DNA from: Brevundimonas intermedia
GTDB lineage: Bacteria; Pseudomonadota; Alphaproteobacteria; Caulobacterales; Caulobacteraceae
Assembly (NCBI RefSeq): GCF_004614235.1
Contig: NZ_SPVH01000004.1
Coordinates: 1-64,000 of the forward strand
Direction of reading: 5' to 3'
Length of the DNA stretch: 64,000 bases
Positions 46,248 through 50,446 of this stretch are shown one piece after another. The notes under the pieces are model-generated. The model was given only the letters and a program-made list of their open reading frames with translations. It was not told the origin of the DNA and ran no database searches. Every line of letters starts with the position of its first letter. Positions within the stretch are counted from its first letter, which is position 1. Both the position numbers and the translations under genes were made by a program.

Positions 46248-49112
46248 ATGAAATTCCGCCTGACCGCCACACTCAAAGTCGGGGCAGCCGCCTCGGCCCT
46301 GATGCTGGGCCTCGCCGCCCCCGCCTTCGCAGAGGGCGCCGCCGCCCCCGCCGCCGCCGTCCAGGCGCCCCAGGGCGTCACCGTCCCGCCGCTGGGCTTC
46401 GCCAAACGCGTCCTGCCGAACGGGCTTGAAGTCTACACCTCGCGCGACGCCGACACGTCCAACGTCACGGTCCAGGTCTGGTACAAGGTCGGCTCAAAGG
46501 ACGATCCGGCGGGCCGGTCGGGCTTCGCCCACCTGTTCGAACATCTGATGTTCAAGTCCACCAGGAACCTGCCGCCCGAGACCTTCGACCGGCTGACCGA
46601 GGATGTGGGCGGCTCCAACAACGCCTTCACCGCCGACGACACCACCGCCTATTTCGAAACCGTGCCCGCCAACCACCTGGAGCGGATGCTGTTCGCCGAG
46701 GCCGACCGCATGGGCTCGCTGGTCGTGGACGAGCCGACCTTCGTCGCCGAGCGCGACGTGGTGAAGGAGGAATACCGCCAGCGTATCCTGGCCAACCCCT
46801 ATGGCCGCCTGTTCGGCCTGTTCGTGCCCGAGACCATCTATCAGGAAAGCCCCTATCGCCGCCCCGGCATCGGCTCGATCGAGGAGCTTGAGGCCTCGTC
46901 GCTGGAGGACGTGCGCCGCTTCCACGCCACCTACTACCGGCCCGACGCTGCCTATCTGATCGTGGCGGGCAACTTCGACCAGGCCCAGCTGGACCGCTGG
47001 ATCGACCAGTATTTCGGCCCGCTGAAGAACCCGACCACGCCGATCCCGGTCAACAATGTGGTCGAGCCCGAGCCGACAGGCCCGCGCAACGTCACCTATT
47101 ATGCGCCGAACGTGCCGCTGCCGGCCGCCGTCGTCGCCTGGCCGACCGTCAAATACGCCGACGCCGACCGCGCCGCCCTGACCGTGCTGGACGGCATCCT
47201 GTCCACCGGCGAGTCGAGCCGCCTCTATCGCTCGCTGGTCTATGACAAGCAGATCGCCGCCCAGATCGGCTCGACCCCCGACTTCTCGCAACAGGCCGGC
47301 AACCTGTCGGCCCTGGCCATCATGGCCCAGGGCCATACGGCCGAGGAGGGCGTCGCCGCCCTGAACGAAGAAATCGCCAAGCTGCGCGACGCCCCCGTCA
47401 CCGCCGAGGAACTGTCCGAAGCCAAGAACGAGATCGTCGCCGATGCGCTGCGCAGCCGCGAGACGGTGGACGACCGCGCGACCGCCCTCGGTTTCGCCCT
47501 GATCAACACCGGCTCGGCCGCCGCCGCCGACGACGAGGTCGCCCAGATCCAGGCCGTCACCGTCGCCGACGTCCAGCGCGTGGCCCGCAAATATCTGACG
47601 CCGCAACGCCAGTCGACGATCACCTTCCTGACCGCCGACGACCAGAACCCCGCCTCGGTCCAGAAGATGAATGTCGGCGCCCCCGTCACCGTCGCCGACC
47701 TGGCGCCGGCCGGTCCGCCCGCCGTCCTCCTGCCCGAGGCCGAGCGCACCCCCCTGCCCCAACCGGGCGCAGAGGTCGCGCCCGTGACGCCCGCCGTCGC
47801 GGACTTCCGCCTGGACAACGGCCTGCGGGTCCTGGTCGCCCCGACCGACGGCGTGCCGCTGGTCTCGGCCCGCCTCAGCTTCGACGCCGGCTCGTCCGAC
47901 GATCCGACGGGCAAGGCCGGCATCGCCGCCATGACCGCCGCCCTGCTGACGCAAGGCACCAAGACCAAGACCGCCCCCGAAATCGCCACCCAGATCGAGC
48001 AGCTGGGCGCTTCGATCGGCGCCGGGGCAGGCGTGGACTTCTCCAACGTCTACGCCAACGCCCCGTCCAACGCCTTCCCTGCGACCGTCGCCCTGATGGC
48101 CGACCTGGTGAAGAACCCGACCTTCGCCGGCGAGGAACTTGAGCGTCAGCAGGCCCAGACCCTGGATGGCCTGCGCGTCGCCCTCAGCCAGCCGGCCGCC
48201 ATCGCCGGCATGACCGTGGGCCGCGTCATCTATGGCGACGCCCCCTATGGCGCGACTATCACGCAACAGACGGTGCCGACCATCACCCCGGCCGACGTCG
48301 CCGCATTCCACGCCGCCCGCTATCGGCCGTCGGACGCGACCCTGGTCTTCTCGGGCGACATCACGCCTGACGCCGCCCGCGCCCTGGCGCAACAGGCGTT
48401 CGGCGACTGGAACCCGGCCGGCGCCGCGCCCGCCGCCACCGCCAACCCCGCCGGTGAGGCCCTAGCGCCCCGCATCGTCGTGGTGAACCAGCCCGGCGCG
48501 GGCCAGGCCGCCGTGGTCGCCGCCGTTCGCGGCGTCTCGCGCACCGACGCCGACTTCTTCCCGCTGACGGTCGGCAACACCCTGCTGGGCGGCGGCTTCT
48601 CGTCGCGGCTGAACCAGGAAATCCGCATCAAGCGCGGCCTGTCCTACGGCGCCTCGTCGTCGCTGGGCGTGCGGGCGGATGCGGGCCTGTTCACCGCCTC
48701 GACCCAGACCAAGAACGAGACCGCCGACGAGGTCGCCTACCTGATCCTGGCCGAGATCGCCAAACTGGGCGCCGAGACCCCGAGCCAGGCCGACCTGGCC
48801 CCGCGCCGCGCCACCCTGATCGGCGGCTTCGGCCGCTCTCTGGAGACGGTGGACGGCCTGGGGACGCTGGTCGCCAACCTGGCGCTCTATGATCTGCCGA
48901 TGAGCGATCTCGCCGACTACGCCGGCCGGGTCCGCGCCGTGACCCCCGAACAGGTCCAGGCCGCCTTCGCCGAACACCTGCCGGTCAATCGCGCCAGCCT
49001 GGTCATCGTCGGCGACGGCTCGCTGTTCCTCGACGCCCTGCGCGCCAAACATCCGAACCTCGAAGTCATCGAGGCCGGGGCCCTGAACCTGAACAACGGC
49101 GCGCTGAAGTAA
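46248..49112 (+). CDS. M16-family zinc protease, two-domain periplasmic type
   Basis: A 954-residue pitrilysin/insulinase-family peptidase. The signal peptide ends at APAFA. The first half carries the inverted zinc motif HLFEH (residues 95-99) with the distal Glu in AERDVVKEEYRQR, and the second half is the inactive M16 repeat (DFRLDNGLRVLVAPTDGVPL, FDAGSSDDPTGKAGIAAMTA without HxxEH), followed by GGGFSSRLNQEIRIKRGLSY. This is the fused form found in many proteobacteria, likely degrading peptides in the periplasm. It is transcribed alone, divergent from the histidine kinase. Confidence 0.92.
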   Translation: MKFRLTATLKVGAAASALMLGLAAPAFAEGAAAPAAAVQAPQGVTVPPLGFAKRVLPNGLEVYTSRDADTSNVTVQVWYKVGSKDDPAGRSGFAHLFEHLMFKSTRNLPPETFDRLTEDVGGSNNAFTADDTTAYFETVPANHLERMLFAEADRMGSLVVDEPTFVAERDVVKEEYRQRILANPYGRLFGLFVPETIYQESPYRRPGIGSIEELEASSLEDVRRFHATYYRPDAAYLIVAGNFDQAQLDRWIDQYFGPLKNPTTPIPVNNVVEPEPTGPRNVTYYAPNVPLPAAVVAWPTVKYADADRAALTVLDGILSTGESSRLYRSLVYDKQIAAQIGSTPDFSQQAGNLSALAIMAQGHTAEEGVAALNEEIAKLRDAPVTAEELSEAKNEIVADALRSRETVDDRATALGFALINTGSAAAADDEVAQIQAVTVADVQRVARKYLTPQRQSTITFLTADDQNPASVQKMNVGAPVTVADLAPAGPPAVLLPEAERTPLPQPGAEVAPVTPAVADFRLDNGLRVLVAPTDGVPLVSARLSFDAGSSDDPTGKAGIAAMTAALLTQGTKTKTAPEIATQIEQLGASIGAGAGVDFSNVYANAPSNAFPATVALMADLVKNPTFAGEELERQQAQTLDGLRVALSQPAAIAGMTVGRVIYGDAPYGATITQQTVPTITPADVAAFHAARYRPSDATLVFSGDITPDAARALAQQAFGDWNPAGAAPAATANPAGEALAPRIVVVNQPGAGQAAVVAAVRGVSRTDADFFPLTVGNTLLGGGFSSRLNQEIRIKRGLSYGASSSLGVRADAGLFTASTQTKNETADEVAYLILAEIAKLGAETPSQADLAPRRATLIGGFGRSLETVDGLGTLVANLALYDLPMSDLADYAGRVRAVTPEQVQAAFAEHLPVNRASLVIVGDGSLFLDALRAKHPNLEVIEAGALNLNNGALK

Positions 49113-49128
49113 GGGCCGCACAAACCCC

Positions 49129-49290
49129 TCTCCCTCCCCGTTCCGGGGAGGGTGGTCGCGCAGCGACCGGGTGGGGGCGGCCCGGCAAGGCCGCATTCCC
49201 TAAAAGCCAGACAGGGTCTGTGAACGGTCGCCCTGCCGCCCCCACCCGACCTCGCTCCGCTCGGCCACCCTCCCCCGCTGGGGGAGGGAG
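49129..49290. repeat. Paired REP-like elements in inverted orientation
   Basis: The left element CCCTCCCC-GTTC-CGGGGAGGG, followed by TGGTCGCGCAGCGACC and GGTGGGGGCGGC, is mirrored from about 49234 by GCCGCCCCCACCCGAC, CTCGCTCCGCTCGG and CCACCCTCCCCC-GCT-GGGGGAGGG. About 50 unrelated bases lie between. Such pairs of GC-rich hairpins (BIME-like) are typical intergenic repeats; they also end the M16 protease transcript region. Confidence 0.75.
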
Positions 49291-49440
49291 ATGCGCCGGC
49301 TCATATTCGCCAGCCATCGTACTTCGGCCGGCGCCGCCCAATCTTTTCAATACCTTGAAGACCCGCAGCGTCTTTCACCCATACGCGGTCCCGACCGGGG
49401 TTATGATCCATCCCCCGGTCTTTGACATCGCGATCCCGCC

Positions 49441-49615
49441 GACTTGGACTCGTTGGACGACTTGGACTGTTTTTTTCGCAGTCCAACTTCGAGTCCAACT
49501 CGCCTTCAAATTGCACAGCGCAATTCGAGTGCAACTTTTTCTTTCAACGATTACAGTTTCTTGACGAAGAATTGCACTTCGTTGCACTGCTTTTCGCCGA
49601 GTGCAATTTCGTCGC
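49441..49615. repeat. A+T-richer cluster of TTGGAC and TTGCAC repeats
   Basis: TTGGAC occurs at 49444, 49453 and 49462 (exact 9-base steps); its complement GTCCAA follows at 49481 and 49493. A second set, TTGCAC at 49511, 49572 and 49582, is matched by GTGCAA at 49529 and 49601. ATTGCACT (49571-49578) and AGTGCAAT (49600-49607) form an 8-pair stem. The stretch is clearly poorer in G+C than its surroundings and directly abuts the stop codon of the minus-strand protease. It may be a structured 3' region or small RNA; no protein is supported. Confidence 0.5.
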
Positions 49616-50446
49616 CTAGACCGACAGGCAGACCACCTGGGCCACGCGCAGATCGCGCCTCAGCTGGTTGGACACCCGGCCATAATCCTCGGTCGTCACG
49701 GCCTGGCCCCGCGCATCCTCGCCCGCCGTCTGTTCGCCCCGGATCGCCGGACCGAAGGTTTCGGGCGCCGTCGTATAGATCCGCCCCCGTCGCGGCGCCT
49801 CGGCGATGGTGACGCCTACGACCCGGCCTTCAGGGTCCAGCGCAGGCGCCCCCGACAGGCCCGACAGCGTGCCCTCCAGCCCATTGGTGCGCCCGACCTC
49901 GGCCCAGGCCAGGACCGGCTCGTCGCGCGCCCCGCGTCCGAACACCTTCAGCGTCTCGCGGCCCAAGAGGCGCGACGTGACCTCGCCCGGACGCCCTTGC
50001 GGGAAGCCGGGATGGAAGGCCCGCTGTCCCTTCCTCAACGGCGCTTCGGCCGCGACCGGCAAGGCGGGCGGCCCCCCGTCGGTGATCAGCAGGGCGATGT
50101 CCGCGCGGGGCGCCAGACGCACGTCGGCGGCGACGGCGCGGCCCTGGCCCACGACCAGCGCCGGCTTGCGACACCCCTCCACCACATGGCGCGCGGTGAT
50201 CCAGCGGCCCCGGCCGGCGATGGAGAAGGCGGTCCCTGACGAGGGCTTGAATGGGGCATCGCCCGCATCGACGGTCACGGCGGCGTCGAAGGGAGTGATC
50301 GGTCCCAGCAGCGGCCCTTCGGCCTCGGACACGGGCGCCGAGGCGGGCGGCGCATCCGCATTCTCGCGCCGCCCCAGCGACACCGCCAGAAACACGGCCG
50401 CCACCGCTCCGTAGATGGCCCAGTCGGGCAGGCGGGGAAATTGCAT
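49616..50446 (-). CDS. Trypsin-like serine protease, membrane-anchored
   Basis: A 276-residue protein with one N-terminal membrane helix (WAIYGAVAAVFLAVSLG), a Pro/Ala-rich linker and a chymotrypsin-like domain. The catalytic residues are visible: His in RWITARHVVEGC, Asp in PRADIALLI and Ser in SGLSGAPALDPEG. There is no PDZ domain. The site reads GLSGAP rather than GNSGGP, a variant often seen in such anchored proteases. It lies 12 bases after the DUF350 gene on the same strand and is probably co-transcribed. The substrate is unknown. Confidence 0.82.
   Translation of the reverse strand: MQFPRLPDWAIYGAVAAVFLAVSLGRRENADAPPASAPVSEAEGPLLGPITPFDAAVTVDAGDAPFKPSSGTAFSIAGRGRWITARHVVEGCRKPALVVGQGRAVAADVRLAPRADIALLITDGGPPALPVAAEAPLRKGQRAFHPGFPQGRPGEVTSRLLGRETLKVFGRGARDEPVLAWAEVGRTNGLEGTLSGLSGAPALDPEGRVVGVTIAEAPRRGRIYTTAPETFGPAIRGEQTAGEDARGQAVTTEDYGRVSNQLRRDLRVAQVVCLSV

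Follow-up and report, generated by a model that had tools for sequence, protein, structure and literature searches.

Dispersed intergenic units carrying an rRNA-type boxA and hairpins of repeated words in Brevundimonas: candidate non-coding transcription units

Near the 3' end of a protease gene of Brevundimonas intermedia, one hexamer is repeated in fixed steps and is followed by its inverted copies and by a second, related set. What such a cluster is, and whether it is anything other than the remains of an older sequence, is the question that this locus raises. A preliminary description of the window (the whole 64-kb stretch of DNA analysed, 64,000 nucleotides long) had proposed a structured or small RNA, outside the feature types of the neighbouring sequence; recurrence and kept pairing, described below, support this in part. 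The cluster lies within the 503-bp gap separating two convergent protease genes, and makes up the 3' half of a longer, dispersed unit (approximately 49310-49612). The extent first assigned to it holds for that half, but the start of the unit near 49310, with its upstream module and its boxA, had been missed. We will refer to the whole arrangement as the "unit", and to its short repeated sequences as "words".

The window locus and the layout of the unit

The features of the locus are collected in Table 1. The repeats are where they had been described: TTGGAC starts at 49444, 49453 and 49462 (steps of exactly 9 nt), followed by T7 (49470-49476) and by inverted copies, GTCCAA, at 49481 and 49493; the second set consists of TTGCAC at 49511 and, with a 10-nt step, at 49572 and 49582, and of GTGCAA at 49529 and 49601. 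The low G+C content of the stretch was likewise borne out, with values of 0.45-0.51 in 150-base windows across the cluster vs. ~0.67-0.75 on both flanks. The protease gene whose 3' end it was said to adjoin is the minus-strand Trypsin_2 gene, encoding a trypsin-like peptidase; its stop codon occupies 49616-49618, and the third hairpin block ends 3 bases before the complement of this convergent stop codon (49616). As plus-strand RNA, 49420-49640 folds with z = -4.39, and 0 of 200 shuffles were equally stable. An Rfam scan of the window returned no family above its gathering score at the cluster, and a tRNA elsewhere in the window only.

Table 1. Coordinates of the unit and of the two genes around it (positions in the window)
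Feature	Position	Strand	Basis
M16 peptidase, left neighbour, 954 aa	46248-49112	+	ORF; Pfam PF00675 and PF05193
Upstream module, read as a putative promoter	49310-49416	+	sequence model R1; consensus and spacing in 85 copies; activity predicted
Upstream-module box CCATC	49314-49318	+	
Upstream-module box CTTTTCA	49343-49349	+	
Upstream-module box CTTG	49354-49357	+	
Upstream-module box TATGAT	49402-49407	+	
boxA-like GGTCTTTGACATCG	49417-49430	+	one base off own 16S leader GGTCTTTGACATTG
Hairpin block 1: three TTGGAC (9-nt steps), T7 loop, two GTCCAA	49440-49502	.	inverted repeats I4, I6, I14; fold; other copies alike
Hairpin block 2: AATTGCAC / GCAATT / AGTGCAAC	49508-49537	.	inverted repeats I1, I15; sequence
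Hairpin block 3: AATTGCAC, TTGCAC, T4, AGTGCAATT	49570-49612	.	inverted repeat I9; near orthologues G105, G112
Trypsin_2-domain protein, convergent neighbour, 276 aa	49616-50446	-	ORF; Pfam PF13365, E 1.2e-15

When copies are compared side by side, a common order emerges: CCATCCTA, weaker boxes, TATRAT, GGTCTTTGACATCG and word hairpins. A 65-aa ORF runs across the window cluster; a small coding gene was rejected there, because one-base indels among the near orthologues (G000, G105, G112) shift all frames. Between the M16 gene and the unit, at 49120-49295, lies an inverted pair of the CTCTCCCTCCCC / GGGGGAGGGAGA type; since similar pairs also flank three other loci (L087, L088, L090), it is probably a separate REP-like dispersed repeat.

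Copies, range and the upstream module

A nucleotide search of the own genome found five further partial copies (E<1e-3) on three other contigs. Among the 131 genomes of the genus searched, near orthologues stand behind the same protease gene in G105 (94% identity) and G112 (90%), and other copies lie elsewhere in the genomes. For a wider survey, the upstream part of the unit, boxA included and hairpins excluded, was turned into a sequence model (R1), which matches the window at 49310-49433 with an E of 6.7e-24. In the own genome, R1 matches 34 times at E<=10 and 16 times at E<=1e-5, and ten of these matches extend through boxA at E<1e-11. At E<=1e-5, 40 of the 131 Brevundimonas genomes match, most often G023, with at least 25 matches (25 of 27 scored candidates); copy numbers per genome are lower bounds, with 11-27 candidates scored in each. 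Across the order, sampled with 299 genomes of 54 genera, 10 genomes match at E<=1e-5, all of them Brevundimonas, and none in the other 53 genera sampled. At E<=1e-3, 20 of 199 genomes of the family match: 19 are Brevundimonas, and one belongs to another genus, with a weak match (E 7.6e-4). A pattern scan of a genome collection, said to cover 84,980 species, gave 57 stretches: 45 in Brevundimonas records (including some named B. vesicularis, B. aurantiaca, B. intermedia and B. mediterranea), 3 in one Caulobacterales MAG and 9 in unrelated phyla, the latter taken as chance matches, being near the rough expectation.

Altogether, 161 raw hits were reduced to 95 distinct copies at >=12 bits. The 72 copies matching boxA were used for the counts of neighbour orientation, folding, hairpins and stop distance, and the other 23 were dropped; for the word counts, weak hits and rows of the second family (see below) were additionally dropped. 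The copies are not independent, because orthologues are included, 9 of them from the window locus.

The boxA of the unit (GGTCTTTGACATCG) shares 13 of 14 bases with that of the own 16S leader, and TCTTTGACAT, sought on both strands, occurs once in the window, at the unit. In an alignment of 22 copies (A1), selected for having boxA, every copy has TCTTTGA, and the -10-like box is almost as constant; L020 and L021, which have boxA but no clear -10-like box, are not part of this alignment. The upstream modules diverge in this alignment (mean column identity 68%), while their spacing stays. Spacing was examined in 85 copies, without weak hits and the second family, and boxA was located in 71 of them: the start of the -10-like box precedes boxA by 14-17 nt in 69/71 copies (by 16 nt in 41), the search being open to distances of ~13-20 nt, and in 42/85 the start of the CCATC-like box lies exactly 88 bp before the -10, the pattern finding none in 35. 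The module is read as promoter DNA because no conserved fold was predicted in it. A TATRAT-like box is conserved across the 85 copies and a -35 is not; nor did the sigma-70 consensus (TTGACA, 16-18 nt, TATAAT) match anywhere in 49100-49700. Several R1 matches stop at the -10 and continue with word hairpins without boxA, so that some copies consist of upstream module and words, boxA missing.

Besides the word hairpins, a second body of ~370 nt (CAGCCATCACAAT...TTTCAATCGCTTG, with many GGA motifs) stands behind the same kind of upstream module. Seven copies are present in the own genome (L087, L088, L089, L090, L093, L094, L098), and measured against one of them the other six show 89-96% identity over 342-375 nt. 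Other genomes contribute three loci (L251, L256, L260), with 80-83% identity; Rfam had no match at E<=1 inside the body in the four copies scanned. The sharing of the upstream module with this family suggests that the module may drive a class of non-coding RNAs. At another locus, L084 (G000:C6:1273368-1273464), a module match with E 3.9e-7, without boxA or words, lies directly before a 164-aa ORF; on this evidence, the module may drive a protein gene too.

Dispersed intergenic copies also invite an explanation by mobility, i.e., a non-autonomous repeat of MITE or REP type, or one related to the Caulobacter CIR repeats, with promoter-like and hairpin sequences and no host function. The sharp 5' edge of the copies at CAGCCATC, clearest in the second family, would fit such an element, as would blocks of ~25-35 nt that are nearly identical between loci of one genome (G004, G096). 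Nonetheless, 13 of the 16 groups of copies with homologous right flanks have both flanks linked throughout, i.e., they occupy orthologous places across species; none of the 25 longest of the 49 inverted repeats in 49300-49800 joins the ends of the unit; and the upstream modules have diverged at kept spacing. We consider this explanation improbable. Regarding the known relatives, the Caulobacter CIR intergenic repeats are said to have been reported by Chen and Shapiro in 2003. CIRs are described as dispersed intergenic repeats of alphaproteobacteria, ~110 bp long, with hairpins and conserved GANTC sites (PMC2229807). By that description, the units resemble them in being dispersed intergenic repeats with hairpins, and differ in that GANTC is absent from the columns conserved in A1; GACTC was found inside the TTGGACTC word only.

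Hairpins and their words

In the usual hairpin, the first word copy lies in the 5' arm, further words and a T-run in the loop, and the complementary arm closes the structure, as in AAAAGTTGGACTC / acttggactcgttggactgttttttcg / GAGTCCAACTTTT (L003). Among the 72 boxA copies, a perfect inverted repeat of >=9 bp is present in 39 (15/720 shuffles), one of >=7 bp with TTTT in the loop in 51 (39/720 shuffles) and a 9-nt-step repeat in 42 (34/720 shuffles). The same features were counted in the 25 best-scoring R1 matches listed for G023 and G044, which had not contributed to R1. BoxA is present in 25/25, partly by selection, because R1 contains it; the >=9-bp inverted repeat is found in 12/25 (21/750 shuffles), >=7 bp with a TTTT loop in 16/25 (36/750 shuffles) and, more weakly, the 9-nt step in 7/25 (36/750 shuffles). 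Some words step by 10 nt rather than 9.

A genome-wide search for the repeat had been proposed, and its outcome was divided: the longer arrangement recurs, but the genome has no excess of the bare TTGSAC-N3-TTGSAC pattern (5 matches vs. 7 for the reversed-pattern control), nor of a general pattern of word plus T-run (18 vs. 16). Of the latter 18 matches, 7 read TTGGACTGTTTTT, and 6 of these 7 lie beside R1 matches. It is the longer arrangement, recurring behind boxA, that exceeds chance, and not the bare repeat pattern.

The words themselves differ between genomes. The own genome uses TTGGAC and TTGCAC, while TCGGAC is found in G004 and part of G109, AATAGAC in G096, G026 and G023, TGGCGC or TGGCAC in G096 and G026, and TTAGAC in G018. 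Eleven of the 16 groups with homologous right flanks have more than one dominant word. In groups A, E, I and K the copies differ mainly in which co-occurring word predominates. Groups C, D, F, G, J, O and P include copies that have no counted word in common, and four of these seven groups (D, F, O, P) have homologous flanks on both sides throughout. Since such word-different copies at homologous flanks keep their stems, pairing has been kept while letters changed at some orthologous sites. The conservation across Brevundimonas that the preliminary description had asked to be looked for is present, as copies in part of the genus and as pairing that outlasts its letters.

With further copies in this genome and in others of the genus, and with stems that stay paired as letters change, the cluster is not debris. 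Chance, old debris or a small coding gene could still draw on the lack of enrichment of the bare 9-step and word-plus-T-run patterns and on the 65-aa ORF; set against recurrence together with boxA and a -10-like box, kept pairing and frame-breaking indels, they appear extremely unlikely.

Word identity was further compared in a table of 79 copies, compiled by hand with ties settled by eye. The dominant word is shared in 118/278 pairs from the same genome, in 54/95 pairs from the same locus in other genomes and in 704/2708 of the remaining pairs, figures inflated because many copies came from BLAST with a TTGGAC/TTGCAC query; label shuffles reached the same-genome and same-locus sharing in 3/2000 and 1/2000 cases, respectively. 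Both genome and locus influence word identity. A less biased sample is offered by G004, whose copies all came from R1 and have TCGGAC in 6/7. A genome-wide turnover of words is suggestive at this stage, as words track both genome and locus, the table is hand-made and the sample is partly biased.

Several loci depart from the usual picture. In L162 and L163 (G109), word arrays are expanded to many TTCGGACTG units, minisatellite-like, and TCGGAC counts on both strands reach 10 and 18, respectively. L079, L146 and L154 are one orthologous locus in three genomes with a different conserved hairpin (CTGCACGAAAGTGCACTC...GCAGTGCACTTTTC in the style of L079), where G096 and G109 have ordinary words. 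L006 (G000:C6:1142953-1142991) has a TTGGAC/T-run hairpin and no R1 match at all; not every word hairpin, then, stands behind an upstream module. At L099 (G000:C2:498533-498740), downstream of a weak R1 match (E 0.26), TTGCAC words and a T-run (ATTGCACTCTTTGCACTGTGTTTTTCC) apparently lie, as judged by eye, inside the signal-peptide coding region of an ORF.

Position, strand and the reading of the unit

The downstream (right) gene faces the unit in 62 of the 72 copies, and both neighbours are convergent in 45, as called by a crude ORF caller that was wrong, by eye, at least at L003. The hairpin lies <=15 nt from a stop codon in 18 of 37 measurable copies (without convergent stop found, 18/72; in the G023/G044 set, 9/25). 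By raw folding energy, the minus strand is the more stable one (mean -72.1 vs. -63.5), and the mismatches of plus-strand stems, with A-C (46) exceeding G-U (29), also point to it; relative to shuffles, no strand preference was found (z -2.35 plus, -2.30 minus). Position and strand-neutral folding fit a 3' structure common to two transcripts, or a DNA-level element. The unit was also compared with an intrinsic terminator, defined by a G+C-rich stem directly before a U-run: the T-run lies in the loop instead, and the region of the window gave one weak terminator-like match vs. a shuffle mean of 0.8. As an observation apart, positions 257-350 of L072 hold the gene of a bacterial small SRP RNA, at a distance of ~1.2 kb from the unit, and the gene beside that unit is one that we take, from its reading frame, to be kdsB-like.

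These positions are the ground of the main rival explanation, a purely cis role at convergent gene ends. The hairpin would be the 3' end of the neighbouring mRNA, as a terminator or exonuclease block, and the opposing boxA promoter would only halt polymerases arriving from that neighbour or make an antisense RNA licensed to escape Rho, the RNA having no function of its own. The prevalence of convergent neighbours, the closeness of hairpins to stop codons and folding without strand preference are all in its favour; words common to loci yet different between species are left unexplained by it, as are copies upstream of a gene in the same direction (e.g., L004). We hold it to be a real possibility, though not a likely one. 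Bidirectional intrinsic terminators do occur between convergent genes. The unit is like them in that its hairpin adjoins a stop codon and some stems end in A-/T-rich pairs of the AAAA...TTTT type, and unlike them in its loop T-run, tandem words, dedicated opposing promoter (as predicted) and boxA.

Our preferred reading, to which we give a probability of about 0.6 from sequence comparison, is that the units are boxA-tagged non-coding transcription units of a Brevundimonas subclade, usually facing a convergent gene with which they would share a two-way 3' hairpin. That a conserved upstream module runs into an rRNA-type boxA appears best explained by a non-coding RNA. A dedicated promoter, made of the upstream boxes at near-fixed spacing and TATRAT, would produce an RNA starting at the rRNA-type boxA; Nus factors on boxA would protect this untranslated RNA from Rho; the RNA would traverse one to three hairpins of a repeated 6-mer word, with more words and a U-run in the loop, and would end against the 3' end of the convergent gene, whose transcript could form the same hairpin. 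We infer in this way the firing of the promoter, the binding of Nus factors to boxA, the end site of the RNA, its stability and non-coding nature, and a 3' end common to both transcripts. Some points count against this reading: there is no -35 consensus, the hairpins are non-canonical as terminators, some copies are without boxA, L020 and L021 have boxA and no clear -10-like box, L006 is without R1, and folding prefers neither strand; furthermore, an RNA of ~75 nt would hardly need boxA protection.

Other known systems resemble the units in part. As in the rRNA leader with its Nus antitermination, boxA stands where the 5' end of an untranslated RNA would be expected, and is one base from the own rRNA boxA; unlike that leader, the units are many, dispersed and short, carry word hairpins and are neither rRNA nor mRNA leaders, and their Nus binding is putative. 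DNA uptake sequence dialects are short species-specific words, often arranged as inverted pairs at gene ends. The units differ from them in numbering tens of copies and not thousands, in being tied to an upstream module and boxA, and in their tandem 9-10-nt steps. As to mRNA leaders, the suhB 5' UTR carries a boxA (PMC5725501). Multi-copy sRNA families and GsrN are, as the units would be, small non-coding RNA genes in Caulobacteraceae; GsrN homologues typically lie near the ecfG/phyR stress genes (PMC5869019), whereas the units are many and boxA-bearing. Integron attC sites, CsrA sponges, iterons and methylation sites were set aside as candidate explanations for poor fit. The literature searched, its coverage leaving out most subscription papers, contained no description of such units.

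A bolder version, which we offer tentatively and regard as rather doubtful, is that up to ~25 boxA-tagged non-coding RNAs per genome, of one promoter class, display lineage-specific loop words that turn over together because a trans partner (an RNA- or DNA-binding protein, or an RNA) reads them and shifts its specificity along with them, which would make a word-dialect system outside DNA uptake and CRISPR. A partner is suspected because the repeated words are displayed in the loop and their letters are species-specific. The word differences between species would then be a natural experiment for finding the partner that reads them. If transcribed, the units would place boxA well outside rRNA and mRNA leaders, making wider roles of the Nus complex testable in culturable species, and the second family behind the same module hints at a whole non-coding regulon.
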